A stretch of 44,784 nt of DNA. Origin: a virus. Both the position numbers and the translations under genes were made by a program. Position 1 is the stretch's first letter; every line of letters starts with the position of its first letter. Of the stretch, positions 520 to 29,200 are shown piece by piece. The notes below the pieces were generated by a model. That model did not search any database. It had not been told where the DNA came from and saw nothing but the letters and a program-made list of their open reading frames with translations. Location: IMG/VR virus record IMGVR_UViG_3300022752_004384, positions 1-44,784 of that record; one strand, given 5' to 3'.

Positions 520-1089
520 ATGGTCATACAGATTTTTACACAGATTAATGAACCTAAACTACCAAATGAATACTCTATTTGGATTCCCTGTTTGACAGTA
601 AACAGCATATTAAGTGTTTGTCCTATACAAACTGATAGCGTATTTATTACACACTCCAATGCTGTCTACTACTATGAGGGAACCCTACGCAACAAACACA
701 TATATTGTATAGGGCCTATCACAGAAAGTCAACTACGAATGGATGGATATACTGTAACACGTTTGGCCGATCGTGCTCGTGATGTAGTTCTGCCTGATGA
801 GCCCATAACTTGGCTACACGGTGATACTTATAAAAGAGACTTTAGCCTAGAACCCAATGTCCAAGCACAACAAACCTATGAGACTACGGTAGATTATACT
901 GCTGTACATCGTGCTATTCATTTACAGGCCAAATTTGTCTATATCTACAGTCCCAAAGTACTCAAGGCTTTTGAAGAAAGGATATCTGGCACATATTTAC
1001 ATTTGAATTGTACAGATAGTTGTAGCCCAAACAGCGAACTATGGCGAAGTATTACCAGGTTCTATCCAATAGACAATAAATACGAATAA
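520..1089 (+). CDS. Uroporphyrinogen-III synthase (HemD)-like protein
   Basis: A 189-residue protein whose motif order matches the two-lobed HemD fold. A strand and S-x-A-V element (SVFITHSNAV) lies at about 41-50. A GP-x-T-x-x-x-L-x-x-x-G element (IGPITESQLRMDG) follows at about 65-77. Then come a loop with HGD, a Y-x-x-x-V-x-Y linker near 120, and a second lobe strand with a Ser-Pro turn (VYIYSPKVLKAF) near 140-151. HemD cyclises hydroxymethylbilane to uroporphyrinogen III, the precursor of heme and sirohaem. The family is weakly conserved and usually near 240-260 residues, so this is a short version and the match is by eye. It converges on the heme oxygenase/bilin reductase block, which supports a tetrapyrrole role. 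Start chosen as the first in-frame ATG; no strong ribosome site. Confidence 0.45.
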   Translation: MVIQIFTQINEPKLPNEYSIWIPCLTVNSILSVCPIQTDSVFITHSNAVYYYEGTLRNKHIYCIGPITESQLRMDGYTVTRLADRARDVVLPDEPITWLHGDTYKRDFSLEPNVQAQQTYETTVDYTAVHRAIHLQAKFVYIYSPKVLKAFEERISGTYLHLNCTDSCSPNSELWRSITRFYPIDNKYE

Positions 1090-2994: not shown

Positions 2995-3013
2995 GTTAAG
3001 TATTTACCTTAAC
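2995..3013 (-). promoter_or_regulatory. Late-promoter-like GTAAATAC inside an inverted repeat
   Basis: GTTAAG and CTTAAC flank GTAAATA on the minus strand, directly before the 453-residue gene. The motif resembles the phage late -10 box (ATAAATA). It ends only seven bases before the ATG, so a transcript starting here would be nearly leaderless. Confidence 0.35.
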
Positions 3014-3684
3014 TCTGGGAACAAACACTCCTGGATGAAAACCCTTACATCTTCCTCGTTTAGCCCCAAACTGGTCATCACCTTAGGCGTGTGAGGATTC
3101 ATTTTTTGGTTGTGTGCGTAGAAATTCTGTGCCTCTCTACTATCGCCCTGTCCATTAGTTTCACCCACATTAGCCAGATAGTGCTCTACTCCACTACGAG
3201 CCATAGCAAAAATTTGATCTAGTTCGTGTTCGTCCTGTACATTTCCAGCAGCCACCATACTCTTACTGAATATACGCTGTGCCCAATCTGGGAGTGCTCT
3301 TTCCTTGCGCCACTCCATCTTATTAACTTCGTGCTCAAACCACTCTAACATAGGATGATCTCGTCTAGTAGTTGGGCTGAAGTCATAAAAACAGCCGGTG
3401 ATTTTATTCTTACCGGCTATTACATCAAAACCAAATATGGGGGCTGGGTTATGTGTATGTGGGAATACGCAACAATGCATCATCCACAAACCTTTTTTCT
3501 CTCTGGCATCTACTACATCTACGTGAGCACGACGATAGTTTTTGCTAGTCCAAACACGGTTGACCCAACCTGGTTGGTTAAATCTATCCATGCCTTCTTC
3601 AAATACTTCTGTGCCAGTACGAGTGAAATTATCTTCTAATAAATGCTGTACATTGATTAGACTATCCCAAACCTTACTCTCCAT
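3004..3684 (-). CDS. Ferredoxin-dependent bilin reductase (PebS/PcyX/PcyA family)
   Basis: A 226-residue protein of the usual family size (about 230). Core signatures are RRAHVDVVDAR (51-61), LWMMHCCVFP (66-75), PIFGFDVIAG (82-91) and CFYDFSPT (98-105), then a C-terminal LFPEL. His70 and Asp87 occupy the positions of PcyA His88 and Asp105, with the same 17-residue spacing. The family reduces biliverdin IXalpha to phytobilins (phycoerythrobilin, phycocyanobilin) with electrons from ferredoxin. The usual NDKT motif near the C terminus reads NPHT (196-199), so the second catalytic Asp of PebS (Asp206) seems to be absent. The gene overlaps the heme oxygenase gene by 11 bases, so enzyme and substrate supplier are co-translated. 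The exact bilin product cannot be read from the sequence. Confidence 0.88.
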   Translation of the reverse strand: MESKVWDSLINVQHLLEDNFTRTGTEVFEEGMDRFNQPGWVNRVWTSKNYRRAHVDVVDAREKKGLWMMHCCVFPHTHNPAPIFGFDVIAGKNKITGCFYDFSPTTRRDHPMLEWFEHEVNKMEWRKERALPDWAQRIFSKSMVAAGNVQDEHELDQIFAMARSGVEHYLANVGETNGQGDSREAQNFYAHNQKMNPHTPKVMTSLGLNEEDVRVFIQECLFPELR

Positions 3685-4219
3685 TGTATAAATCCCTCAT
3701 CATCTTAATGGCCCATTCGAAGGCCACACGAGCCTCATCACCTAGGTCGTCTGTTAGTGTGATGCGAATAGCTGTCTTCATAGCATCAGCGTTCTCGAAA
3801 TCATAGAACTTGCCTTGGCTGATATGTGCCACTTGTTTTTTAATGATCTGGCCTCCGAAAAGATCGCCCATATGGCGACAATATAGATGTGCCTTGATAA
3901 GGTGCTTGCGGAATTCATCATTGCCCAATTTATTTAGGTATGCCTGATACTCCAAAGTCGCTGGAGTTAGATAACAATAACTACCATCATCTAGTTCTTG
4001 GAAGTCAGCATAGATTGCCTTGAGGCGTGGTAGATTTGGCATGCTCACAAGGAAACCTTGGCGTTGGCAATACCATTCTATGGGATCATAGATCGCCAGT
4101 AGATTATACAGATAGTTTCTGTAGTCTTCTTTCTTGATTTTGCCACTTAGTAACATTTTGGCAAATTTAGTTGTTTCTGCCTCATGGTGTAGGTCTTTGG
4201 TTATTTCTCTTAAACTCAT
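3674..4219 (-). CDS. ho1: Heme oxygenase
   Basis: A 181-residue all-helical enzyme. The proximal helix has the family pattern LHHEAE (10-15) with His11 as probable heme ligand, and the distal helix has GDLFGGQ (118-124), equivalent to GDLSGGQ of HO-1 with the catalytic Asp (119). It cleaves heme to biliverdin IXalpha, CO and ferrous iron in the cytoplasm, using ferredoxin or another reductant. Its length is that of compact phage and bacterial forms, without a membrane anchor. The start overlaps the clpS stop (ATGA) and the stop overlaps the bilin reductase start, giving one coupled unit. Confidence 0.92.
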   Translation of the reverse strand: MSLREITKDLHHEAETTKFAKMLLSGKIKKEDYRNYLYNLLAIYDPIEWYCQRQGFLVSMPNLPRLKAIYADFQELDDGSYCYLTPATLEYQAYLNKLGNDEFRKHLIKAHLYCRHMGDLFGGQIIKKQVAHISQGKFYDFENADAMKTAIRITLTDDLGDEARVAFEWAIKMMRDLYNGE

Positions 4220-4545
4220 TCTTCCTCCAGTTTGATTTGTAACGGAAATCCATTAGCCCTTGCCAAATTAGTAGTTTCTACTGCCTTAATTTCCGCGATC
4301 TCAAAACTATATGTACCTGCGATACCACTTCCAGACTCATGAATTTGGAGTGTAATATGTTGTGCAGTTTCTGGAGTATGTTTAAAGATTTCAATTAGGA
4401 TACTGATCACAAATTCCATTGGAGTATGATCATCATTTAAAAAAATTACATGCCATTTTTTTGGTTCTTTTACCTCAATTTTAACTTTTTCATTGAGTTG
4501 TATATCAGTAGTGACTTCTGTTGTAGACACTGTATCGACAATCAT
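4216..4545 (-). CDS. clpS: ClpS-type N-degron adaptor for ClpAP
   Basis: About 109 residues: a flexible N-terminal tail of about 30 residues, then the ClpS core with WHVIFLNDDHTPMEFV (the NDD..P substrate pocket), HESGSGIAG and YSFEIAEIKA, and a C-terminal PLQIKLEEE. ClpS docks on the ClpA N-domain and delivers proteins with bulky hydrophobic N termini for degradation. No ClpA or ClpP is seen here, so it would act on host protease. An ATG four codons upstream exists, but GGAG lies 6 bases before the ATG at 4545, favouring this start. It sits between hsp20 and the heme oxygenase gene. Confidence 0.88.
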   Translation of the reverse strand: MIVDTVSTTEVTTDIQLNEKVKIEVKEPKKWHVIFLNDDHTPMEFVISILIEIFKHTPETAQHITLQIHESGSGIAGTYSFEIAEIKAVETTNLARANGFPLQIKLEEE

Positions 4546-4564
4546 ATTAAACTCCATTATAAGT

Positions 4565-4588: not shown

Positions 4589-5026
4589 TTAGGCTTGGTT
4601 AATTTGAATCTTCCTTGGCAGCAGGGCCTCAGGAACAATTCGTTCAATCACTACAGTAAGCAAACCATTTTTGAGATCAGCATTTTTTACTTCCATATGT
4701 TCTGAAAGAGCAAATGTTCTCTCAAAACTACGATATGCTAATCCTCTGTGAAGATATTCTATTTCCTCACTGGTTTCTACAGCTTTCTTTTCACCAGTAA
4801 TAATCAACTGATCCTGATCTATACTTACATCAATTTCATCTCTACTAAAACCTGCAACTGCCAGCGTAATAGTATAGATATCACCCTTGCGTTCTAGGTT
4901 ATAGGGAGGATAGTTATTATTGGCCATACTGTTCCCCCAACTACGTTCCATAGTGTTAAAAATACGATCAAAACCAATCAATGCTCTGTTTAGAGCCGCT
5001 GTATCCATTCTAGCTAATTGTGTCAT
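4589..5026 (-). CDS. hsp20: Small heat-shock protein (Hsp20/IbpA type)
   Basis: 145 residues with the alpha-crystallin domain: YNLERKGDIYTITLAVAGF (42-60), the acidic EIDVSIDQDQLIITGEK strand pair, LHRGLAYRSFERTFAL, and the conserved NGLLTVVIER, followed by a short C-terminal PRKIQ (I-x-I-like) tail. It holds unfolding proteins for refolding by DnaK, encoded directly upstream. AAGGAG lies 7 bases before the ATG. The 97-base leader holds overlapping early and late promoter motifs and a hairpin. Confidence 0.9.
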   Translation of the reverse strand: MTQLARMDTAALNRALIGFDRIFNTMERSWGNSMANNNYPPYNLERKGDIYTITLAVAGFSRDEIDVSIDQDQLIITGEKKAVETSEEIEYLHRGLAYRSFERTFALSEHMEVKNADLKNGLLTVVIERIVPEALLPRKIQINQA

Positions 5027-5056
5027 TTTATTTCTCCTTGTTAAGCAAGATTAAAA

Positions 5057-5081
5057 TAGTGGCCTCACCTGAGCACCACTA
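5057..5081 (-). other. 5'-leader hairpin of hsp20
   Basis: TAGTGG pairs with CCACTA across a 13-base loop, 3 bases downstream of the late -10 motif. The dnaK leader has an equivalent hairpin with AATGGT/ACCATT, and both leaders share CTTGCTTAA before the ribosome site. Confidence 0.45.
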
Positions 5082-5083
5082 GG

Positions 5084-5118
5084 TTATTTATGTTAGCACT
5101 TAAACATTTAAGTGTCAA
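5084..5118 (-). promoter_or_regulatory. Overlapping early and late promoters with palindromic operator, hsp20
   Basis: Minus strand: TTGACA (5118-5113), a 17-base spacer and TAACAT (5095-5090) form a sigma70-type promoter. It is followed at once by a late box, CATAAATAA (5092-5084). The spacer carries a perfect inverted repeat, CACTTAAA-TG-TTTAAGTG (5114-5097), running into the -35 box, where a repressor could bind. Confidence 0.5.
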
Positions 5119-5122
5119 CATA

Positions 5123-7000
5123 TTAGGCTGCATCCTTTACCTCTTTAAAATCAACATCAGTAATATCTTTGTCCTTTTGTTGACTTTGTGCTTCCTTAGC
5201 CTTATAGATAGGTTGAATAGCAGCCATCAAGTCACTCAACTTTTGAGTGATTGATTCTTTTGTGCCTGTGGCAGTTTCTGTTATAACAGATTCAATACTT
5301 TTTTCTATCATTTCTTTTTCACTGGCACTTAACTTATCTTCAACTTCTTTTAGATCCTTACGCACATTGTGAATTTGACTATCTACAGTGTTACGCATAT
5401 CTACAATTTCACGTTGCTTACGATCTTCCTCAGCATTGGCCTCAGCTTCACGAATCATCTTTTCAATTTGATCCTTACTTAGTCCTCCATCTGATTTAAT
5501 AGTAATTTTATTCTCTTTGCCTGTGGTCTTATCTTTGGCACTGATTTTCATAATGCCATTAGCATCCACATCAAAAGTTACTTCAATTTGTGGCATACCT
5601 CTGGGCTGTGGCATAATACCTTCTAGGTTAAATTCCCCTAGTAGTTTATTATCCTTTACAAACTCACGTTCACCTTGAAATACCTTAATAGTAACAGCAG
5701 GTTGATTATCCTCTGCTGTACTAAATGTTTGACTAGCCTTGGTTGGGATAGTAGTATTCTTTTGGATGATTTTGGTCATTACACCGCCCAATGTTTCAAT
5801 ACCCAAACTTAATGGTGTTACGTCTAATAGTAATACATCATTACGCTCACCACTGAGAACAGCACCTTGTATAGCTGCACCAACTGCCACTGCTTCATCT
5901 GGATTTACATCCTTACGTGGAGCTTTACCAAATAATTTCTCAACTGCTTCCTGTACTTTAGGCATACGTGTCATACCACCAACTAGGATGATTTCATCAA
6001 TGTCAGCTGGAGTAACTCCTGCATCTTTCATTGCAGTGCGACACGGATCAATACTACGCTGAATTAGATCTTCTACTAGACTTTCTAATTTGGCCTTTGT
6101 AATCTTTATGTTTAAATGTTTAGGTCCTGATGTATCGGCTGTTATATATGGTAAATTTACATCAGTCTGTTGACTACTACTCAACTCAATTTTAGCCTTT
6201 TCAGCAGCCTCTTTTAGTCTTTGTAGAGCTAATACATCTTTGGTAAGATCCAATCCTTGATCTAGTTTAAACTGATCTACAAGATAATCCATAATACGTT
6301 GATCAAAGTCTTCACCGCCTAGGAACGTATCACCATTAGTGCTTAGTACTTCAATTTGCTTGTCGTTGCCTACATTGGCAATTTCAATAATACTGATATC
6401 AAAAGTACCACCACCTAGGTCATATACTGCTACCTTACGATCCTGCTTATCTGTTTTATCGACGCCGTAAGCCAACGCGGCAGCAGTAGGTTCATTAATG
6501 ATACGAAGAACTTCAAGGCCAGCAATACGACCAGCATCTTTAGTAGCTTGACGCTGACTATCATTAAAATAGGCCGGAACAGTAATAACAGCTTGAGTAA
6601 CTTCATAGCCTAAATAATCTTCAGCAGTCTTTTTCATTTTACGCAGTACTTCTGCACTGATCTGAGGAGGTGCTAGTTCCTTACCCTGTGCCCTCACCCA
6701 AGCATCACCACTTGAATTTTCAATGATATCATAGGGCATTAGGTCTAAGTCTTTTTGTACAGCCTCTTCTTTATACTTACGCCCAATTAGACGTTTGGCT
6801 GCATAGATTGTATTTTTTGGGTTTGTAACAGCTTGACGTTTGGCACTGGCACCTACAAGAATTTCTTCATTAGTGTAGGCTACAATACTAGGAGTAGTAC
6901 GTGCTCCTTCGCTGTTTTCTATTACACGGGAATTGCCGCTTTCAATTATAGCGACACAACTGTTAGTAGTACCGAGATCGATACCGATTACCTTACTCAT
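5123..7000 (-). CDS. dnaK: Chaperone DnaK (Hsp70)
   Basis: A complete 625-residue Hsp70 (typical 610-640). Visible are the N-terminal phosphate loop [13 protein letters not shown], the second phosphate motif [11 protein letters not shown] near 194-204, the adenosine motif [10 protein letters not shown] near 338-347, the linker [14 protein letters not shown], the substrate-binding domain with [13 protein letters not shown], a helical lid and a C-terminal [11 protein letters not shown] tail. No DnaJ or GrpE gene is visible nearby, so it presumably uses host co-chaperones. AAGGAG precedes the ATG. The intact length and motifs argue for selection for function in the phage; folding virion proteins or the tetrapyrrole enzymes are inferred uses. 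Confidence 0.97.
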
Positions 7001-7030
7001 ATTGTTATCTCCTTAAATTAAGCAAGAATT

Positions 7031-7053
7031 AATGGTCTTGGTTAAGCACCATT
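7031..7053 (-). other. 5'-leader hairpin of dnaK
   Basis: AATGGT pairs with ACCATT across 11 bases, starting 2 bases after the late -10 box. The position matches the hsp20 leader hairpin, which suggests a shared mRNA-stabilising or regulatory leader. Confidence 0.4.
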
Positions 7054-7054
7054 C

Positions 7055-7063
7055 TTATTTATA
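7055..7063 (-). promoter_or_regulatory. T4-type late promoter, dnaK
   Basis: TATAAATAA on the minus strand exactly contains the T4 late consensus TATAAATA (recognised through gp55-type sigma). It lies 55 bases before the dnaK ATG and just after the exonuclease stop. Confidence 0.6.
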
Positions 7064-7065
7064 CA

Positions 7066-7596
7066 TCAATCAAATTTTCTACCCAATTTCCTAAACATAT
7101 TTTGTACACCTATGGCCTGTCTACGGGCATCTTCAAGAGCATGATGTTTATTAGCCTGAGGCATTTCAGGGTCCATTCCCAAGTCAAATAATGTACGGGT
7201 ATCTCTAACTTCCCAAAATTTCCATGGATACGGTTTTCCAATTTGTCTATAGTAGTGTTCTAAAATAATAATATCAAAAGTGCTACCATGACTCCAAAAC
7301 TTACTGGATCCCATACAGAACTTATAAAAATCGTCCATTACTGTACGTATGTCGATTCTATTATTAGGATCAAATGCTTCTTCTTGAGCTTTTGGATCTT
7401 GTTTGCTCCACCATTCAATAGTTCCATCATCAATATAACTGTCCAGCCCATCCAAGCTTTCCAGTTCTACTTTATAATAAAGTTCATCATATATTTGATC
7501 ACTATTAGGATTAAAGGTTACTGCACCGAGGCTTAATATTGCTGCGTTGGGTGTAGTGGCTAAGGTTTCTAAATCTACCATTAAATGTTTTGTCAT
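7066..7596 (-). CDS. DEDDh 3'-5' exonuclease (DexA / Rv2179c-like)
   Basis: 176 residues with the three DEDDh blocks: MVDLET (Asp8, Glu10), a central HGSTFD (about 104-109) with the second Asp, and HHALEDAR (about 151-158) with the catalytic His and last Asp. It is shorter than T4 DexA (227) and closer to the compact Rv2179c-like group. A role in host DNA or RNA degradation or nucleotide salvage fits the family. TATAAT (7609-7604) lies 7 bases before the ATG, so the mRNA might be nearly leaderless; the -35 match is weak. Confidence 0.82.
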   Translation of the reverse strand: MTKHLMVDLETLATTPNAAILSLGAVTFNPNSDQIYDELYYKVELESLDGLDSYIDDGTIEWWSKQDPKAQEEAFDPNNRIDIRTVMDDFYKFCMGSSKFWSHGSTFDIIILEHYYRQIGKPYPWKFWEVRDTRTLFDLGMDPEMPQANKHHALEDARRQAIGVQNMFRKLGRKFD

Positions 7597-7624: not shown

Positions 7625-7852
7625 TTAGTAAAGCTTAGTTGGTAGTCTTTCTTTTTCTAATTTTTTCTTATATCTATTGACTGCGGCACCATGTTTACGC
7701 TTGCGTTCTGTTGTGGGCTTTTCAAAAAATTCTTTTTTACGTAGGTCATCTAAAATACCACTGTCATCTACTTTCTTTTTGAATTTGCGTAGTGCTCTAT
7801 TAACATCTTCATCTTCTCTTAATACTACTTTGCGACCGTTAAAATTATTCAT
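7625..7852 (-). CDS. rpsU: Ribosomal protein bS21
   Basis: About 75 residues with the bS21 pattern: KVVLREDEDVNRALRKFKKK, then GILDDLRKKEFFEKPTTERKRK and a basic C-terminal helix. The open frame extends 19 codons upstream, but the ATG at 7852 has AAGGTG just before it and overlaps the preceding gene's end by 8 bases, so it is preferred. bS21 sits on the 30S platform near the mRNA exit. Phage copies are thought to replace the host protein and bias initiation toward phage mRNA; that role is known for the group, not shown here. Confidence 0.88.
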   Translation of the reverse strand: MNNFNGRKVVLREDEDVNRALRKFKKKVDDSGILDDLRKKEFFEKPTTERKRKHGAAVNRYKKKLEKERLPTKLY

Positions 7853-8252
7853 CTTCACCTTCTTCTGGGTTTTGTACTTGTTTGAAAAATGGAATACTAT
7901 CCAAATCATAAATTCTATTTTTACTTATCAAACCATAAGGAGTTATTTCATCCTTTGTTATATAGTAAGTATCTGTTTGAGCTATCATAAAAGTGACAAA
8001 GCTTCGTGTAATTACATCACAATTGTCAACATCAATAATACAAACATCAGCATAATTATGTACGCTTAATAACCAATCTAAATCCATTTCGTTTTCGTCA
8101 TATACAAATACATTGAGTTCTTCAATGATTTGACATATATATTTTTGAAAGGCTTCCTTAACTTCATTTGTTGGTTTAACCAACAAAATACTAGGATTTT
8201 GGTTAAACAATTTATCTGGTGGAGTAATTACATTAATCTTGCCTAGATTCAT
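7845..8252 (-). CDS. Unknown phage protein (135 aa)
   Basis: A soluble, acidic 135-residue protein with no membrane segment. Alternating hydrophobic strands (SILLVKP, LNVFVYDE, DVCIIDVDNCDVITRSFV, DTYYIT) suggest an alpha/beta fold. The C terminus is NPEEGEDE and overlaps the bS21 start, so bS21 is translationally coupled to it. Its own start overlaps the preceding small ORF by 20 bases. Family not recognised. Confidence 0.6.
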   Translation of the reverse strand: MNLGKINVITPPDKLFNQNPSILLVKPTNEVKEAFQKYICQIIEELNVFVYDENEMDLDWLLSVHNYADVCIIDVDNCDVITRSFVTFMIAQTDTYYITKDEITPYGLISKNRIYDLDSIPFFKQVQNPEEGEDE

Positions 8253-17252: not shown

Positions 17253-20200
17253 TTACATACGACCTATTACAACTTCAATCATGCCCTCTTCGCCATCAAA
17301 ATCTTCCAGTGCTTTACCTATGACCATACCCATTCTTGGATCATCATGTGCTTTAGCATAACCATCGCCTGCACTGACTAACATATCACCCTTGGAGATC
17401 TTACCTTTTACCTTAACTGGTACTCGACCCTGTAGTGCTATAGTAGCAGTATGTTCAGCTTCTAATTCAGCGTTCATCAAATGAGCTGGATTCTTACTTA
17501 TTACGCCTATGACCTTTCTTGTTTCTTCAATGGCCAATGTAACTTCATACACGCCACCTAACATTAGTACAGTGCCTTCAGCATAGTCAGCATCAGCTAC
17601 ATAGTTTTCTGCCAAGTCAGCATAACGTGCTGATGTGGCAGTACAAGTTGCTAATCCTGCAGAATTTACTTGAAATCGAAATACATTTGCTCCATCCGAC
17701 CAGCCACCAATTTTAAACACATTGTCGGTATCTAAGCCCATATTGACTGCATATGCACCAGCACGATGGAAACTTAGTTGCGCTGCGTTTGTAGTAGATC
17801 CCATAACCTGTGGACCGCCTACACCGCCATAACCAACACCAACACTGGCAGTAGAATAACCTAAGATACCAGCAGTACCAGTCACATTGGTTGCATTGGT
17901 TGCATTGGTAGAAGAACCTGCACTGTCTGCGTATCCTACGTGTACATCTGCATGGCCAGCATTATTTGCATCATAACCATATAATCTCCAATATGTTCCA
18001 GTCCAATATGTTTGAACACTATAACCACTGTCGTCATCACGTCTATATAATCTAGTGGTTCCTGGTCTGGCATCGCTGACCCTAATATTTGGCGTGTTGG
18101 CTGTATTGAGCATACGATACCAACCTGTGAATGCACCTGAACCCCACACACCTCTTATCCAGCACGAACTAGGATCACCTGCACCTACAGCCATTTGATA
18201 ACCATAACGAGTGGTTCCATCTGTAAAGTGTAGTGCCTGATGACCTTGCCAATGGGTTGTACCTGGGGGTTGATTTGCAGGGCCACTCCAAGTATCAAAA
18301 AATCCTGATCCCCAGTTAAATACGGTATTAAGATCTTCTTGCCCCCAACCCATGGAGCCTACCCAATAACCCGAATTTGAAGTGATGGCAGGTCTAGAAG
18401 TTCCATATTTGGCCGTCAATCCCAAATGAGCCTTAGCTGTATTAATAGAACTATATCTAAGATATCCATCATAGCTCATGTAAATACGATCTGGGAAAGT
18501 ATTACCTAAATCACCAGATGTAGTATTGATCCAACCTGCTTGAATATAACCATTACTGTCAGTCCTTACTATTTTATCAGCCTCGTTATTACGACCTCCA
18601 TGAACTGCCAAACCACCTGCTGTAGTGGCATTGGTTACTGATTGACTACCAATATTCGCCGAAGTAATAAATTCAACCCAACCACCAAATGTACCAGCAG
18701 AAATATTACGTTTCCACATACGGTTTGCATTATCTTCCCAACCGTGTGCATATTGTGTGCCCCAATAGTTAGATCCATTACTATGACGCATTGTTTCTAA
18801 GAAATGCCAACCCGCATTGGGAGCATTTGTGCTACCATTACATTCAATCCAACTGGTTCTATGAGCTGGAGTATCCGTAAACTGTGTATTTGCGTTACTT
18901 GCTGTGCCTGATGGCGATTGATACAATGCATTGGTAGCAGTACCATTTATGTTCATTGATTGACCACTGATAAATGCAGCCACTTTAGCAGCCGTTGCAG
19001 ATCGATAATAGTTATCACCGAACTTGGCCATTATATAAGTTATAGTGCCAGTGCTTACATCATCACTACTATTAAAATAGTTAGAGTTAATATAACGGCC
19101 ATAGAAATCACCATTAGCATCACGAGCAACAATGGCATTGGCAGTATTTGCACTGGTAGCATTTGTGCCTAAAGTTATTGTAGCATTAGTTCCTTGATTG
19201 GTAGTAAATGATCCACTACCAGTTAAACCACCGCCTGTGGCAATATTGATAGTTGCATTACCTACATAATTAGTATAATTATTACTATGTAATATTTTTG
19301 ACCATGCAGTAGTTCCACTTCCTGCTGTTGATCTATAGAAAAGATCCTGACTATAAAAATCAGCAGCCAACTGCATAGCAAAATAGTTAGCATCATTACT
19401 ATGTGTAGTACTCATTAGATGACACCAACTATTCGTGTTTATAGGCCAACCTTCAGCTGTAGTTGCTGAACTGGACTCCCAAAATCCTGAAGTTACTCTA
19501 GTTGTTAAATTATCCTGATTTTCACTATCATTGCTAAAACTAGCCCCAGTAGCATAGCCTACTAAATTAGCTGTAATAATTCTCGCACTGAAGTCGCCAT
19601 TGCCATCTCTGAAAACAGTGGTGCTAGCAGTATTAGCACTGGTAGCATTACTGGCAACAGTAAATGTGGCTGCTGTAGAGCTATTGGCTGTAAATGTAGT
19701 ACTACCACTAATACCGTTGCCAGAGGTGTTCATAGTTAATGTAGCATTACCAACATTAGCTGTGCCTACACTAGCACCGGTTACGTGTCCAAAGTCATCG
19801 AAGTTAAGACTTATATCTTGTATAAATGTAGTACCACTATTATCACTGGCTAAATTGCTTACACTGCTAGTATCAGCATGTGCTATGAATACAGCATTGC
19901 TTTCTCCTGGACTTATATTAGTAAAAGTTAATCCAGAATTTACAGTGCCGCTTAATGTAGCACTACCAGGAGTTCCAGCACTAATTGTAGCAATATAATT
20001 ACCAGTTGTATCTGTTCCTAGTGCTACACTATTTGCTGATACTGTTAATGCTACGTTGCTAACGTTGGCACTGCCATCTATAGTAAAGTTACCTGTTATA
20101 TCTCCGCCAGCAAAAGTTACAGTTCTAGCTGTGCTCCATTTATCAGCACTGGTTGCATTTCCTGATACGCTTCCTGTTATATTGCCTTCAAAAGTTCCTG

Positions 20201-23200
20201 CAATAACAGTAGATCCTGCACCAAATGTCCATTTATCTACACTCTCATCCCATAGTAAACTTACATTAGTACTAGTACCTCTTTCAACTTCAATACCTGA
20301 ATTTTGACTTGGTGTTCCTGTTTCATCAGCATTTAATACTATTATATTATCACCAATATTAACTGTATTACTATTGACTGTTGTAGTTGAGCCATTTACT
20401 GTGAGGTTACCTGTGATTATAGTATTACCACCTACACTTAACGCTCCCCCAATATTAACATTTTCACTAATACCTGCACCACCTGTCACTACCAATGTTC
20501 CAGTTGTAGTATTAGTGCTGGTAATATTAGCAGGCATTTCAATACGACCTGTTCCTAAGACTTTAAGTCTATCAGTACTGGTCAGTAAAGTTGGACCACC
20601 ATAGCTAATTGTTACGTAGCTACCTGTATCTGTTACATCAACAAACTTTTCAATACGCCAATGACTTCTAGCTAATGTATCCTTAACAAATGCAGTACCA
20701 TTCCAGTTTAAATTGGTCATCCAACTATAGGTATGCAGTGCTGGACTGGTTATTCTACTCTTGAATGAGGTAGTTAATGCACTTTGTATTGTGACACTGG
20801 TCAATGCTCCAGTTCCAGCATAGGTCAAATTTAACGTAGGATCATCTATTACAGGGCTAGCCTTATATATGACCTGTCCACCAGTTGTAAAGTTTATGGT
20901 ACTACCATCAGTAGCTTGGAATGTCATTGTATTGCTAGCAGTTAATGTTTTAGTATTGGCTAATGTAAATGTACCGGTGCTATTTGTAATAGTCATTCCA
21001 TTTACAGTTTTGTTGGTCAATGCTTCTGTACCAGCCAATGTAGCCAATGTTCCTGTTGTTGGGAAGGTAACCGTAGTTGCAGCAGTCATAGTAAATGTAC
21101 TAGCAAAGGCTCCGCTGGTTGTTAGATTACCACCTAATGTTATAGTTTTGGTACCGTTATTAACACCAGTACCACCGTATGTTGGACTAATAATAGTTGC
21201 TTGCCATGTACCAGTTGCGATAGTTCCTACCTTGGTTAAGCTACTATTGACTACCCCCGATCCTAATGTTGTGCTGCTCAATACATCAACACCATTAATT
21301 TTATAAGTTTTTCCAGTGACGAGATCCATATTCTCGCTACTGGTCCAACTACTAGTTGTCTGTTTCCAACTAAATGACTTGTCAGTAGTACCTTTTACTG
21401 TGATACCGCCACCATTAGCAGTTGCATTAGTAGCTCCACCTGTGCTAAACACTACAGCAGTACCGTTTGGTGATATTTGATCAGGTGGAGTATCTGCTGT
21501 AAATGTAAATAGATTTGGACCGTCAATACTGACCACTCTAGGATTAGATCCTAGCTGTCCTCCTGATACTCTGCTTAAGGTCATACCAGGAATCATACCA
21601 CCAGTGTTGGCAGTTATAGTTGAGGTCAGTGATCCAACAGCAGTGAAGTTAATATTACCTGAACGATTACTTATTGGTTCTACAGAACCTAATTCAATAT
21701 TATTATCGTCCATCTTAATATCATAGGCATTTAACGTACTGGCAGCACCTGTAATATCAACATTACCTAATACTGTTAATCCATCAATGATTAAACTATT
21801 ACTCCATTGTGGAGCAGAGCCAGTACTAGTTAAAACTCTATTGGCAGTTCCTATAGGAAGTTTTTGTAAGTTTGTTGCACCGTTAGCATAGAGCATGTCA
21901 CCCACTGTATATGCGCTATAATTAGTACCCCCTCTACTAACTGGGACTGGTTGTGATAGATTTACTGGGTTTAGGTAGTATGTACTATCATATCCATCTA
22001 ATGTTCCTGCATCTACTACCCCACTTTTAATTGTTACTGTACCCTGTGCTGGTCCTGATCCAACATCAAATTGACTTTTATTAAACTTGGATACACCTAT
22101 ATTTGTGTATCCTGGTGTAGATGTACTTTCCTGTGCGCCACTTACTATGTCAATACCAATGGTTACTTCGTTGTAATATTCATTGAGACCACCAGATCCT
22201 GGGTCATAATAGGAACCTGTGATACTAATAGCACTATCTGTATTTTGTCGTTTGATCTTTTGTACAGCCTTGGCCCATTGATTGTCACCTCTGAGGAATG
22301 TGTTGGAATTGGCTAGTCCTATAGCCAATCTACTGGTACTCATTATGCCGCTTACAATATTATTAGTATCAATATTGTTGGCACTTAGACTACTCCAGTT
22401 TTCTGGTAGTATTGAAGCATTATCTACTACACCTATAATTCTAATACTTTGTTTTCTAAAACTGGCAGTGCCTGTACCTGTGTTGGTAAAGTTAAACGCA
22501 CCAATAGTAAGTCCTAGAGTACTGGCCACTGAATCAGCTCTATTTTCGTGTATAGTAAATGTGTTTTGTGTGATTGATCCTACGAAGAAAATACTCTGTG
22601 TCAATATACCATAAGGTGGATCTGCTGCTATAATCTTCACAGCATCCCCTGTGGCAAATCCATGATCTGGAATATAAACTGTATCCTTAGTGATATTGAT
22701 TACTTGCAGAGTAAATGTTTGACTGCCAGCTCCTGAGTTCTGTATGGTTAGTTTGCTGCTTAGACTGTAGTTAGTATATAGTTCAATAGTATCAGCATCG
22801 ACTCGTTTGATGTAATATACAGAATTATTAATAATACCACCTAATGGTGTTCCAAATCCTGCATTATATACCACAGGATCGCCATCATCAAATGGATGCC
22901 CTATAATAGTGATACGACTCAATGCTGTATTCACTGCACCACCTGAACCAGTACTAGCTGCATTGAATGAAGCCACTACAGAAGAATCCATAGCACCTGT
23001 AGTCTGTGTAACTACTACAGAGTCTTCTGTGAATTCTGGAGCTATTAGACTAGCATTAAACTTCAATGCACCAACAACATCTACGAATAATCTATTTTGT
23101 ATTTGACTAACTTTTACGCTAAATGCTGAACCACCTGTGCGTCCTCCTAGGCTCGCATTACTGGCACTGAGGCGATCTGTGGTAGTATATCCACTACCAC

Positions 23201-26200
23201 CTGCTGTAAGTGCTACATTAACTACTACTCCACCACTAAGGAAAATATCAGCTCTAGCACCTGTGCCTGATCCACCTGTAAGTGGAACATCAGGATATAT
23301 CCCAGATACAGGTTGTGTATATCCACCTCCGCCTGCTAGTCCATTAGTAGGATCATTTGAATTATCAACAGCATTAATTACACCTAATACTAGAGATTCT
23401 ATATTACCCTGTGCTTTACTGTTACTGCCGGTTACACTGGTAACTCCTGTAAAGTTGTAGGTTTGTGTAGTATCAAGTAATAGGATTTGTTTAGCATCTA
23501 ATTCACTTAAAATATAATTTGTATTCTGATCAGGAATCACACCACCTACTACTGTGGGTGTTCTGCCTGTTGCGGATCCATTTTTACTTAATAATCCTGT
23601 AGTATTGAAGTTAGCATTGAATGTTTTAGTTAAGCTACCAACGATCAATGTAGTGCCGTTAGTCGCTCCTACTACCCTACCTGTGGCGCCTGATCCTGCT
23701 TGTAGGATTAGATCACCATCAGCAGCCACAATGGTTCCATTAAGAGTAAGCTGTACGCTACTATATGTTTCAATGGCTAAATCACCGTTTAAAATACTAG
23801 TAGGTGGTATAGTATTAACAAGATTCAATCTACTGCGATAACCACTACTTCTATATACAAGGAAGTTTCTTAATGGTGGTATCTGATCAGCATTTAGTTT
23901 GCCCAAGGCGTTAAGCTGTGGAATACCTCCTGGTACTGTGGTTGTAGTCAGTGCTTTGTCAATAAAGTCACCCAATCTATTCTCTAAGAATCCACGAACA
24001 GCAGCCTGTGTACTTAATCTTTTATGGCTTGGACCGCCTACTTCATTATCACCTAGGTCAATGTCAGCACTGAATTCTTCAATAGTAATGTTACCTACGG
24101 CCAATTTCAAAGCATCCAATGCAGCAATACTCACTGTATTAGTAAATTGTACATTACCAGTTTTGTTTTCTGCCTTAATAAAGTCACCAACTTTAAAGTC
24201 ACCTAATTCATTGGTTCCTGAACTATATACACGCCCTGGTAATTCACTGACCTGTTCATATTCTACTCTAGTTCTACCACCGTTTTGTGGTAGTGCGTTA
24301 TAATCTATACCACTACCTGCATATTCCCAAGTATGACTACTGCTATTACAAATACTGGGTCTATGTAACCATATTTGTTTTTCTGGTAAGGTTTCTAAGT
24401 TGATAAGTTCATTACCGCTGGTTGTGGCCAATATTTTAAATGTAGCTGTGTATAGATTATCTACGTTATTAACATCAGTTACATCAATGTTTAATATAGG
24501 GGTAGCACTGTGATCATATTGAATAACAGAATTCAATGTAAAGTTATTTCTAATAAAAGAAATACCTATAAGAACTTTTTCAACGCTGACTACTAGATTA
24601 CGTGTGGTTGGATCCCAACTATATACATAAGCTCTATTTGGTTGCGATCCATCTGTGGTACCTTCTATGACTCTTCCAGGAACAAATGTATATTCCTTGC
24701 CAACAGGAGGAGGCTGTATCTGTAGTTTTTGATAGACTACGTGTGATTCAGTGAGATCATCAATAAAGAATTCTTTAATGTTCTTGAGGAATAAATGATC
24801 ACCTGCGGGTAGTGGGGCCGAGAACTTGACCTTGATTTCAAAACTGTCATCCAAATATAATTCAAACTGGTTTAGATTCACCGTCTTAACCACATAAGTT
24901 TGTTCATCATATAAACCTGTGATTACACTGTTGCCATTTCTACTATAGACTATACGATTGGTATTTTGGAAACCATGATTAGGTATTGTTATAAGCCCTG
25001 TAACTGTATTGATTACAGGTTCTGTCTGTGCAGGTGAGGTCAAGGGAATAATTACATTATTTGCAGGTGTAAATGTCACACTATCATTGGCCTGTTTATA
25101 ACTGTTGGTCACGTCACCTATATTACTGTAGTCAATGATTTCAGGAACATTGATAATACTAGTAGTAATATCTATAATAATATCAAATAAATCACCTACA
25201 CGGCCCTGTGCATCTGGATGTACTAATAGTATAGTCTGTGCCTTAAGTCTTTCAAATGCTGCTATGTTCTGCGTTTTCTGTGCTATCACTGCTGCCGAAG
25301 TAGCTGTAGCATAGGCTAAACCTGCCTCCACACTCTTACTGTTACCACCAGTGAGCACATCGTAGGCCACTGCTTCAAGAATTAATATTGTGTCTCGTTT
25401 ACAGGTATCATCATTATAGGTAAACCCTGTATAATATGGTTGTGTATTGTTGGCTATTTGATCATCAATCCATATGATCAAAGCGTCTCTTAATTCTTCT
25501 TTGTTGTTTAATATTGTTGTATAAGTGTTTCTATAAACAGGATTTCTAAATCTTATTACATAGTGCTGTACAGGTAAATCACCAAAACCAATAGCGGTAA
25601 GAGTTTGTTGTGCTCCAGCGGTACCTGTGCCAACTACTATACCTTTATTAAAATCAAAAGCATTTGGACTATATCCATTAGCCCTCAATGCAAACTGTCC
25701 AAAGTTAGTAGCACTATTGGTAATACTTAAATATCCACCACTTTGTACATAACTACCATTTAAACAAAAGATTTGGAAACAACTTACAATCTGTGCATAA
25801 GCATCATTGATCACACGATAGCCTGTACCACCAAAGCTCAACATGGTAAATGCATTACCCACCATTGACTTACCTTGTTGTGGAGCAGGACCTTCTACTG
25901 GATTCTCTGCTTCAATCTGATTAGCTGGTATGTTAGGTGTGCGTACCTTACTACCATCTACTAATACGCCATTACCGCCTAAGAAACTGATAATAGAGCA
26001 GTTTTGTACATAAGGGCTTATACTGATTACAGGCTTGTTGTTAGGTAATCTACCATAACCAACACGACTACATTCAGGATCAGCAGGATCATCAAAGGCC
26101 ACGGCATAGTCAAATGTAAAGCTAGGAACCTTATTGCTATCTAAAGCGTCTCTAAAAGTTATCTCTGTGAAATAACAACCATTACGCACACGCAGCATGT

Positions 26201-29200
26201 CCTTGCCAGCGTTCCTTGGTCTGATATTACAGGCACGTAGTCCAGCACCTACTACACTGACATTGTCTGGTATGATAATAGGATTATCTTCATAGTAATC
26301 ACCGCTGGCTACTGCTATAACTAGTCGTTTTTCATTAGGAATATAGTCTGCTACAAAAGCCACTGTCTCAGTTTGGATCAGAGCTTTTTGTGCCAATAGG
26401 TTACTGCGAGCATCACTCTTTATTGGGGATATTCTTGTTGCATTAGGCAATACTATTGCAGGTGCTTGACCTGGGCCTTGATCCACAATGGTTACTAAAG
26501 ATGTTAATAGTTGATCTACCGTAGTTTTAGCTGTGCTACTGGCCGTTAGTCCTGCTCCATAGACGAATGAGGTATTGTCCAATACCTCAGGTATGATAAC
26601 TGTTTTTAAATGTTCATATGTTATAGCACTGGCTGCTCTATCATTGAAGATAGGTAAGCCTGCTCCATAGGCAAAATATTTTTTAGCAGCATCTACAGTT
26701 TGACTGTTACCACCGTACATGAGATCATAGGCAACACTATATATTATGTATTCAACATCACGAGAGCACTTAGCCGTATCGTAGGTAAAGTTACTAAACT
26801 CTAAACTTATGAAATCACTAACTGCTGTGATTATAGCTGATTTACTTTCTGTCACTAACTCTACATTTAACTGTGTAGTTGGATCTGCCACACTAACATC
26901 TGGTAGTTGTAGATTATTTAATGACGCAGTACTTTCAGTTGTGATCACATTGATGATTATATCAACTAAGTTTTTACATTCTGTGGCAGTGGCTGTATTG
27001 GTTGCAGGATATGTTGCAGTATCCTGTGTTAGAGTATTAGTACTAGTCTTAACTATGGGAACAGCACGTACAATATTATCTATAATATTTTTTAGTCTAG
27101 TATATGCTGCCAGTGTTTGTGTTTTTTCACCCACACCCAGCTGTAGCACACTACCTAATAAGTAGGAGTCAGCAGCTCTATATGTGGCTGTGTTTCCGCC
27201 ATAGAGTATATCATAAGTAACAGCATCAACTATAAACTCAACATCACGAGCACAGGTGATAAAGTCAGTTGTAAAAGCAGGATATGTAAATTTGATCCAC
27301 TCTATGATTTCTAATTTGATAAAGTTCTTATTTTGTTGTAGTTGATTTTTGGCACTTAACTGATCGGCTGCTATGCCTGTGGGATTTGTAAATACCACAG
27401 GATCTGGTGTTGCTCCGTTGAGAAGATCTATTATATCCTGTATTTTATTTTTATAGCTTAGGAAGAAGGAGCTACTGCTAGTATATTGTTCTGTTTCTCT
27501 ATACAACTTTACTAGAGATGCTTTAGTTTGTTCTAACTGGTCTGCGTACTGTGCATTTGTAGCCTGCTGTCTAATATAAGCAAACTGATTTTGTCTAGTA
27601 TTTAAATTAGTGCCTAATGCTATATCATAAATAGCACCATCTATGATCAATCCTAAGTCACGTTCGCATTTGGCTTCTGTGGCTGCATCATAATTGAACC
27701 CAACAAAAGTATTATTTGTAAAGTTAATGACCTGTGTAGCAATATATGAAATATTGTTGATCAATAAGTCTTTAGCATCAACAAATCCAGATGACAACCC
27801 AGCAGGAGTTGGCATGGTAACTGCGGGCACTGGAGCAGTACCGATCCTTAATATGTTACCAGCTGTAGTATTGGCAAATATGTTTGTAACTGTTTGTATG
27901 CTGGCAGTAACATCAAGAGCTTCTTGACCGCTTTGTGTAGCAATGACCTTAAGGGCTAGATAGTTTAAGGCTCGTAGTGTTATTTCTTTTTGTGATATCA
28001 ATACAGCACTGGCTGTAGCATTGCTATATGTAAAGCCAGCCTTTACGCTTTGCCAGTTACTACCATAGATAAGATCATATCCAATAGCATCTATGATTAA
28101 GCCAACATCCCTAAAACAGGTTTGATCATTGAATTCATTACGTTGCTTATAGACCAAACCACTGGCTATTTGTAGAGCACGTTTAATAGTTTTAACTGGT
28201 TTGTTGATGCCATCAAAATTATCGTTACCATAATCTGCACTGACACTGACCTGACCACCACCAAATAGATCAGGACTGGAAAACTCTAGTTTATCACCTT
28301 TACGGTTCAATGTGAGAATAGACCCATCTACGCCTAATGATCTTGGGAATGTCAGTGTGTAACTATTAACGAAGTTATCTGGATTAGTTCCAGTAGGTGC
28401 TCTCAGTCCTACATAGTTAGTACCATTGGCTGTGAGTTCTTTCAGTCTCAGTTCGCCATAGTTATTAACATTGATACCATCTGTATTAATCAGTGTGGAT
28501 TTAATAGTGCTAGGAAAGCTTTCACCAATCTTTGTATTATCAATATTACCACTGTTTATATCTACACTATCTAAAGTAGTCAATCCATCTACAGTGAGAT
28601 TTTCTTTGATCAAGACATCGTTATTAACAACAATGTTATTAACAGTGATATCGTCTAGTAACAAACTGCCTAATGTGGCCTGACCATCTACGTTTAGGTC
28701 ACCATCAATATCTACATCACTGGTTGTATGTAGTGTCGTAACTGTAACGTCATCTGCTGTAACATCACCAGCAGTAACATCTCCTGTGAATAAGCTTGTA
28801 CCTGTTACGCTTAGGTTGCCCCCTACATTGAGGTTTTCACCAATGCCTACACCACCCTCAACTACTACTGCTCCTGTACTAGCACTAGTAGAACTAGTAT
28901 TAACTGAACTATCATTAGGATCAATTACTCTTATTAGATTATTAAAATCTGCTGGTCCTGTGACATTTAAATCTACAATATCAGCTGTATCATTAACTGT
29001 TAAAAAATCTGTAATTATATTTTCCGCAGTAACATCACCTGTTAGATTACCAGTTACATTGCCTGTAACTTGACCTGTATATACTGCATTAGTACCATCA
29101 GTGCCTCTATCCAATATTACAGTTTCAATAATTTGAGAAGGATTGGCAGGATTAGGCCTATACAATATAACATCTGCATATATCTTTGCATCGTTACCAT

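Follow-up and report, generated by a model that had tools for sequence, protein, structure and literature searches.

Why phages of non-photosynthetic bacteria carry enzymes converting heme into bilins is a standing question, and the co-occurrence of these enzymes with a 5-ALA synthase (AlaS) has been termed "still enigmatic" (PMC11480375). The same question is raised by a linear IMG/VR record of 44,784 bases (the window, i.e., the whole record), for which a sequence-only reading had proposed a phage heme oxygenase (HO) and a bilin reductase located in a chaperone/ClpS operon. The Pfam families, coordinates, and strand all agree with this proposal (Table 1): in the ORF list of the window both genes are found on the minus strand, at the positions assigned to them earlier, and their overlap of 11 nt (3674–3684) is confirmed. 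The HO gene in turn overlaps clpS by 4 nt, ATGA (4216–4219). IscU, IscA, and ribosomal protein bS21, also recognized in that reading, are confirmed by profile matches, and the window encodes in addition a class Ia ribonucleotide reductase (NrdA/NrdB).

Table 1. Features of the heme oxygenase–bilin reductase locus and its upstream neighbours in the window
Feature	Position	Strand	Characteristics
PcyX-type ferredoxin-dependent bilin reductase (FDBR)	3004..3684	-	226 aa; PF05996 E=1.9e-16; catalytic D56, H70, D87
Heme oxygenase (HO)	3674..4219	-	181 aa; PF01126 E=6.4e-23; proximal His11, GDLFGG distal motif
ClpS adaptor	4216..4557	-	PF02617 6e-28; matches ClpS structures
HSP20, IbpA-like	4589..5026	-	PF00011 3.8e-17
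hsp20 leader RNA	5024..5090	-	Covarying hairpin and hairpin holding UUGCU and Shine-Dalgarno (ROSE-like)
DnaK	5123..7000	-	Pfam 3e-257; TIGR02350 3e-275
dnaK leader RNA, same element as hsp20 leader	6999..7063	-	R1 covariance model match
TATAAATA box, T4-late-promoter-like	7056..7063	-	56 nt upstream of dnaK
Rv2179c-like exonuclease	7066..7596	-	PF16473 6e-41; conserved upstream neighbour
Ribosomal protein bS21	7625..7909	-	PF01165 4.7e-17

The reductase, judged by its sequence and predicted fold, is a member of the PcyX type. Sequence comparison with solved structures ranks PcyX_EBK42635 (5owg; E=5e-69) first and PcyA next (5e-13), and 5owg is also the top PDB match of its AlphaFold model (mean pLDDT 85.8). 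In the alignment with 5owg, D56 corresponds to Asp55 of PcyX (the HLD aspartate, residue 63 of the 5owg chain, taken as the published Asp55 after subtracting 8) and D87 to Asp86, while H70 is also present. The three residues are invariant in 42 phage FDBRs, and the first of them is replaced by Glu in all six PcyA sequences. Asp55 is specific to PcyX and absent from the PCB-forming enzyme CB_2 (PMC11480375), and PcyX lacks Glu76 of PcyA (PMC10151467). In a maximum-likelihood tree the window FDBR forms one clade (100/99) with its freshwater relatives, the enzyme of Pelagibacter phage Mosig, and 5owg, apart from PebS and from PcyA (cyanobacterial, without the alphaproteobacterial AX clade); the branches leading to the references are long. 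The assignment to PcyX is based on the structure match, the presence of Asp55, the tree position, and the match of the modelled fold, and it bears out the comparison with marine phage PcyX drawn earlier. Owing to Asp55 and this assignment, phycoerythrobilin is the likely product. A 2Fe-2S ferredoxin (PF00111, Fer2) that could serve as a phage electron donor was not found in 24 phage records.

HO is recognized by PDB heme oxygenases at the sequence level, and heme oxygenases are the top PDB matches of its AlphaFold model (mean pLDDT 88.3). H11, G118, D119, G122, and G123 are invariant in the alignment of phage HOs, with G118-D119-L120-x-G122-G123 constituting the GDLxGG distal helix. The two proteins very likely have the activities of HO and PcyX. 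By family biochemistry, HO is predicted to convert host heme into biliverdin IXa, Fe2+, and CO, and PcyX to carry out a four-electron reduction of biliverdin, phycoerythrobilin being the most likely product and a host ferredoxin the donor.

A comparison of related loci shows that a block conserved in jumbo phages, dnaK–hsp20–clpS–ho–pcyX, ends with the HO and PcyX-type reductase genes as its two final cistrons. Relatives are encoded by 329 stretches in IMG/VR, of which 80 were taken for analysis, and this gene order occurs in 37 of 42 FDBR clusters (clustering at 90% identity), so that the observation is beyond chance. The exceptions are Mosig, L011 and L063 (dnaK not nearby), L013, and L051. 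The order is retained with FDBRs of identity as low as 66%, and the stop of clpS and the start of ho coincide exactly as ATGA in 53 of 76 loci; upstream of the block, bS21 and the exonuclease are each found in 67 of 81 loci. The arrangement had been regarded as unusual, which holds true among phages at large but not within this lineage, where it is the rule. No plasmid copies of the cassette were found, and the only bacterial copy is a 3.3-kb MAG contig with ho–pcyX (L083, 59%), probably a phage contig itself. A megablast search with positions 1–25000 of the window gave no near-identical isolate phage.

The two enzymes of the pair do not share the same history of divergence. Relative to the window copies, HO is 39–91% identical in the other freshwater relatives while FDBR is 70–86% identical, and the two values do not run in parallel (HO 91% and FDBR 72% in L042, HO 41% and FDBR 78% in L012). 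It therefore seems that ho was swapped in place between clpS and pcyX while the arrangement stayed, which would imply selection for the arrangement. Divergent HO types fill the same slot in L009–L081. Some loci carry additional genes in the block: one coding for 86–88 aa is situated between clpS and ho in L012 (5180–5437), L029, L050, L062, L066, and L075, the L012 copy having no Pfam match, and a gene for a tryptophan-halogenase-like FAD enzyme (PF04820 7e-84) lies between ho and pcyX in L032 (4503–6047). A class II aldolase gene is another occasional insert at the latter site.

The carriers are T4-like jumbo freshwater phages with contigs of up to 400 kb. The window is largely colinear, end to end, with a part of the 399,796-base contig G001, and a T4-type major capsid protein is encoded in 6 of 7 records exceeding 200 kb. 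In the window, positions 17253–30404(-) comprise one ORF of 4383 aa, partly matched by G001. The DnaK proteins of 21 phages are monophyletic (100/100) and sister to those of Burkholderiales (99/97) in a tree with a limited reference set, which suggests a non-photosynthetic betaproteobacterial host and agrees with the earlier view that the host is probably non-photosynthetic. A flavobacterial host, as in moraphages, is disfavoured by the same tree.

The chaperone genes are preceded by RNA elements of their own, which, like the link to AlaS, the sequence-only reading had overlooked. The window contains two copies of the motif CTTGCTT-N3..12-AAGGAG against an expectation of 0.01, one immediately ahead of hsp20 and the other of dnaK, and most relatives have it in the same places; in the leaders AAGGAG is preceded by UUGCU, or by UUACU in one subgroup. 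The first hairpin, common to 32 hsp20 leaders, displays 65 double-change cells versus 19±4.4 in shuffled alignments (0 of 500 as high) and at most 10 in the slid control, while the second, terminal hairpin around the Shine-Dalgarno sequence is almost invariant in these leaders and hence outside the reach of covariation. A covariance model, R1, built from hsp20 leaders only, recovers the dnaK leader of the window with E=4.5e-9 and its hsp20 leader with E=9e-15, the latter being one of the training sequences. Of 58 R1 matches in 614 kb, 56 are hsp20 or dnaK leaders, and there is none in Mosig or in the loci without chaperones. In 15 phage records (2.84 Mb) R1 finds two sites per record, or one where the block has no dnaK; extra sites are confined to G010, in which the block is present twice and one further marginal match occurs. 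A conserved two-hairpin leader RNA element thus stands on both hsp20 and dnaK. As to a possible host source of the element, R1 found nothing credible at 15 bacterial loci, all of them dnaK regions.

This element resembles ROSE-like thermometers, whose two to four hairpins include a U(U/C)GCU stretch pairing with the Shine-Dalgarno sequence and a bulged G (PMC11182007), and we put forward the hypothesis that the leaders act as temperature sensors of the ROSE type. They exceed the threshold of no Rfam family: the gathering score of ROSE_2 is 65 bits, and the leaders reach 19 and 23.9 bits (19 for the dnaK leader). On folding, the accessibility of the Shine-Dalgarno sequence rises mildly with temperature, depending on the stretch folded and similarly to other window genes. 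The hsp20 leader of the window folds in a shifted register, and the dnaK leader with added coding sequence prefers another helix. RNAalifold yields no structure for the mixed alignment of dnaK leaders and a weak covarying hairpin for the 17 most similar ones.

As regards transcription, 10 of 36 representatives carry the TATAAATA box at no more than 150 nt from dnaK, where 0.008 would be expected in each, and its position before dnaK suggests late transcription. The dnaK–hsp20 gap of the window also contains a sigma70-like promoter, TTGACA-17-TAACAT (ca. 5078–5115, minus strand), with a perfect palindrome, CACTTAAA-TG-TTTAAGTG, between its boxes; an altered yet still palindromic version is present in L008, and most relatives do not have it.

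Genes for the synthesis of tetrapyrroles accompany the block. AlaS is encoded in 14 of 24 records, including 6 of 7 of those above 200 kb. There is no alaS among the analysed ORFs of the window, and by synteny it is expected just beyond the window end: in G001, the closest 400-kb relative, which also has a ferrochelatase, it is located ca. 3 kb past the point matching that end, beside a ferritin-like gene. Ferritin scores above the cut-off in only 4 of 24 records. A 189-aa ORF of the window (520–1089, plus strand) and five homologues match uroporphyrinogen-III synthase HemD, all below threshold (2e-4 at best in the set, the window copy over only 32 residues, with the PDB profile search being unsupportive), so it is possibly a further tetrapyrrole gene.

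What the block does is tentatively best explained as a stress or late operon co-expressing phage chaperones with heme-to-bilin turnover, and heme turnover and stress may be its main purpose. The locking of the pair to dnaK, hsp20, and clpS in diverse jumbo phages points to stress and proteostasis of the infected cell rather than to photoreception. DnaK and HSP20 (1e-36 against the NCBIfam IbpA model, under that model's own cut-off) would maintain the folding of phage and host proteins, with the leaders predicted to occlude the ribosome binding sites of their genes. ClpS, in which the N-degron-pocket residues N41, D42, M47, and H73 are the same as in E. coli ClpS, would direct N-degron proteins to ClpAP; a ClpP-family protein is encoded in 10 of 13 records. 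HO and PcyX would turn over heme, freeing iron for IscU/IscA and the ribonucleotide reductase, and would also remove reactive biliverdin. Phage AlaS, present in most large relatives, would feed the pathway, bypassing the regulated glutamyl-tRNA reductase (GluTR) of the host, so that the phage would act at both the entry and the exit of the tetrapyrrole flux. Several points speak against this explanation: AlaS brings no net iron if iron release is the aim, ho–pcyX occurs without a detected chaperone block in Mosig and in the short contigs L013 and L051, so the association is not obligatory, and co-inheritance within one phage lineage could alone preserve the gene order.

The joint presence of AlaS, which increases heme, and HO, which decreases it, speaks against pure iron salvage and in favour of either flux control or a wanted bilin. 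The latter case, in which AlaS, the host heme enzymes, HO, and PcyX would make a bilin de novo for its own sake (as an antioxidant, redox sink, signal, or pigment), is possible, if rather unlikely. Simultaneous making and degrading of heme makes most sense when something further down the pathway is the goal, and besides the frequency of AlaS the ferrochelatases of G001 and, near ho–pcyX, of Mosig fit such a pathway; however, a search for the PHY domain revealed no bilin-binding partner in the 24 records.

A bolder version of the operon explanation, which we consider doubtful, is a heat-shock-like regulon. The paired ROSE-like thermometers on dnaK and hsp20 would gate the operon, while its clpS–ho–pcyX tail, together with phage AlaS, would seize host tetrapyrrole metabolism: ClpS would speed up the degradation of host GluTR, AlaS would replace that enzyme, and HO–PcyX would convert the pathway product into bilin. 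ClpS is a binding partner of GluTR in plants, where Clp breaks the enzyme down; in bacteria, Clp and Lon are responsible for GluTR turnover (PMC6597238). If true, phages would possess a temperature-sensing operon linking proteostasis to heme-to-bilin conversion.

Iron salvage as such, with HO freeing hemoprotein iron for Fe-S assembly and the di-iron ribonucleotide reductase and PcyX merely disposing of biliverdin, appears unlikely. IscU, IscA, and NrdA/NrdB in the window and ferritin-like proteins in some records are in keeping with it, but AlaS works against it and so does the scarcity of ferritin.

The supply of a chromophore for a host bacteriophytochrome, a role suggested in the sequence-only reading, is improbable since the 24 phage records contain no PHY domain, i.e., no phage phytochrome, and the predicted product cannot photoisomerise at C15. 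Phycoerythrobilin has no photoisomerisable 15,16 double bond, and the chromophore of bacteriophytochromes is biliverdin itself, which alone would suffice. In favour of this role, the phycocyanobilin made by CB_2, an FDBR from a freshwater phage, assembles into a functional phytochrome (PMC11480375), but that enzyme differs from the window FDBR precisely in Asp55, on which the prediction of phycoerythrobilin is based. Passive hitch-hiking of a block that was acquired once, has since been inherited vertically, and serves no joint function is hardly credible: the block-bearing loci all appear to be one lineage with a monophyletic DnaK, but the order has outlasted the divergence of the FDBRs and the replacement of HO in situ, the translational coupling of clpS and ho is exact, and the active sites are intact throughout.

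The HO–PcyX pair itself has known counterparts. Cyanophages likewise carry members of the FDBR family, PcyA and PebS; their PcyA, however, has Glu in place of Asp55, shares 21–28% identity with the window FDBR, belongs to a separate clade, and comes from phages of cyanobacterial hosts. On account of this identity and the separate clade, a cyanophage origin of the FDBR is rejected. The marine ho1–pcyX cassette (PcyX_EBK42635/5owg and Pelagibacter phage Mosig EXVC030M) is closer, as the ho and pcyX genes likewise overlap and the catalytic residues are the same. Mosig is also a T4-like myophage of a non-cyanobacterial host, but its FDBR is ca. 49% identical, the pair has 2OG-Fe(II) oxygenase genes on one side and neck genes on the other, and there is no dnaK, hsp20, or clpS beside it. 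In the Mosig record (L001, MT647606.1) a ferrochelatase and four 2OG-Fe(II) oxygenases are annotated beside ho–pcyX. The aquatic phages with hemO, pcyA/X, and valaS (PMC11480375) are likewise of freshwater and have hemO and an FDBR together, with 5-ALA synthase elsewhere on the genome; unlike the PcyX of the window, CB_2, the freshwater FDBR characterised from them, is a genuine PcyA, an identity that Asp55 makes unlikely for the window enzyme. The main text of that paper mentions neither ClpS nor DnaK, nor a chaperone/ClpS operon. Moraphages and other jumbo phages (PMC12619734) are also large freshwater phages with host-derived DnaK/HSP20, but the moraphage DnaK groups mostly with Flavobacteriaceae, in contrast to the Burkholderiales affinity found here, and no heme, bilin, or ClpS genes are mentioned for them.

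Phage ho–pcyX cassettes have thus already been published, from marine and freshwater (2024) phages and together with 5-ALA synthase (PMC11480375), and therefore the pair is not new. In the open-access literature no report was found of a chaperone–ClpS–HO–PcyX operon or of ROSE-like leaders in phages, and as far as found, the apparent novelty lies in the operon setting and the leader RNAs. Like ROSE_2 (RF01832), the leaders lie 5' of a small heat-shock gene and have two hairpins, the terminal one of which could pair UUGCU with the Shine-Dalgarno sequence and leave a purine bulged; they differ in their phage origin, in their presence on dnaK as well as hsp20, and in scoring below the Rfam threshold. 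A response to temperature would make them, to our knowledge, the first ROSE-like thermometers of phages and also the first on dnaK.
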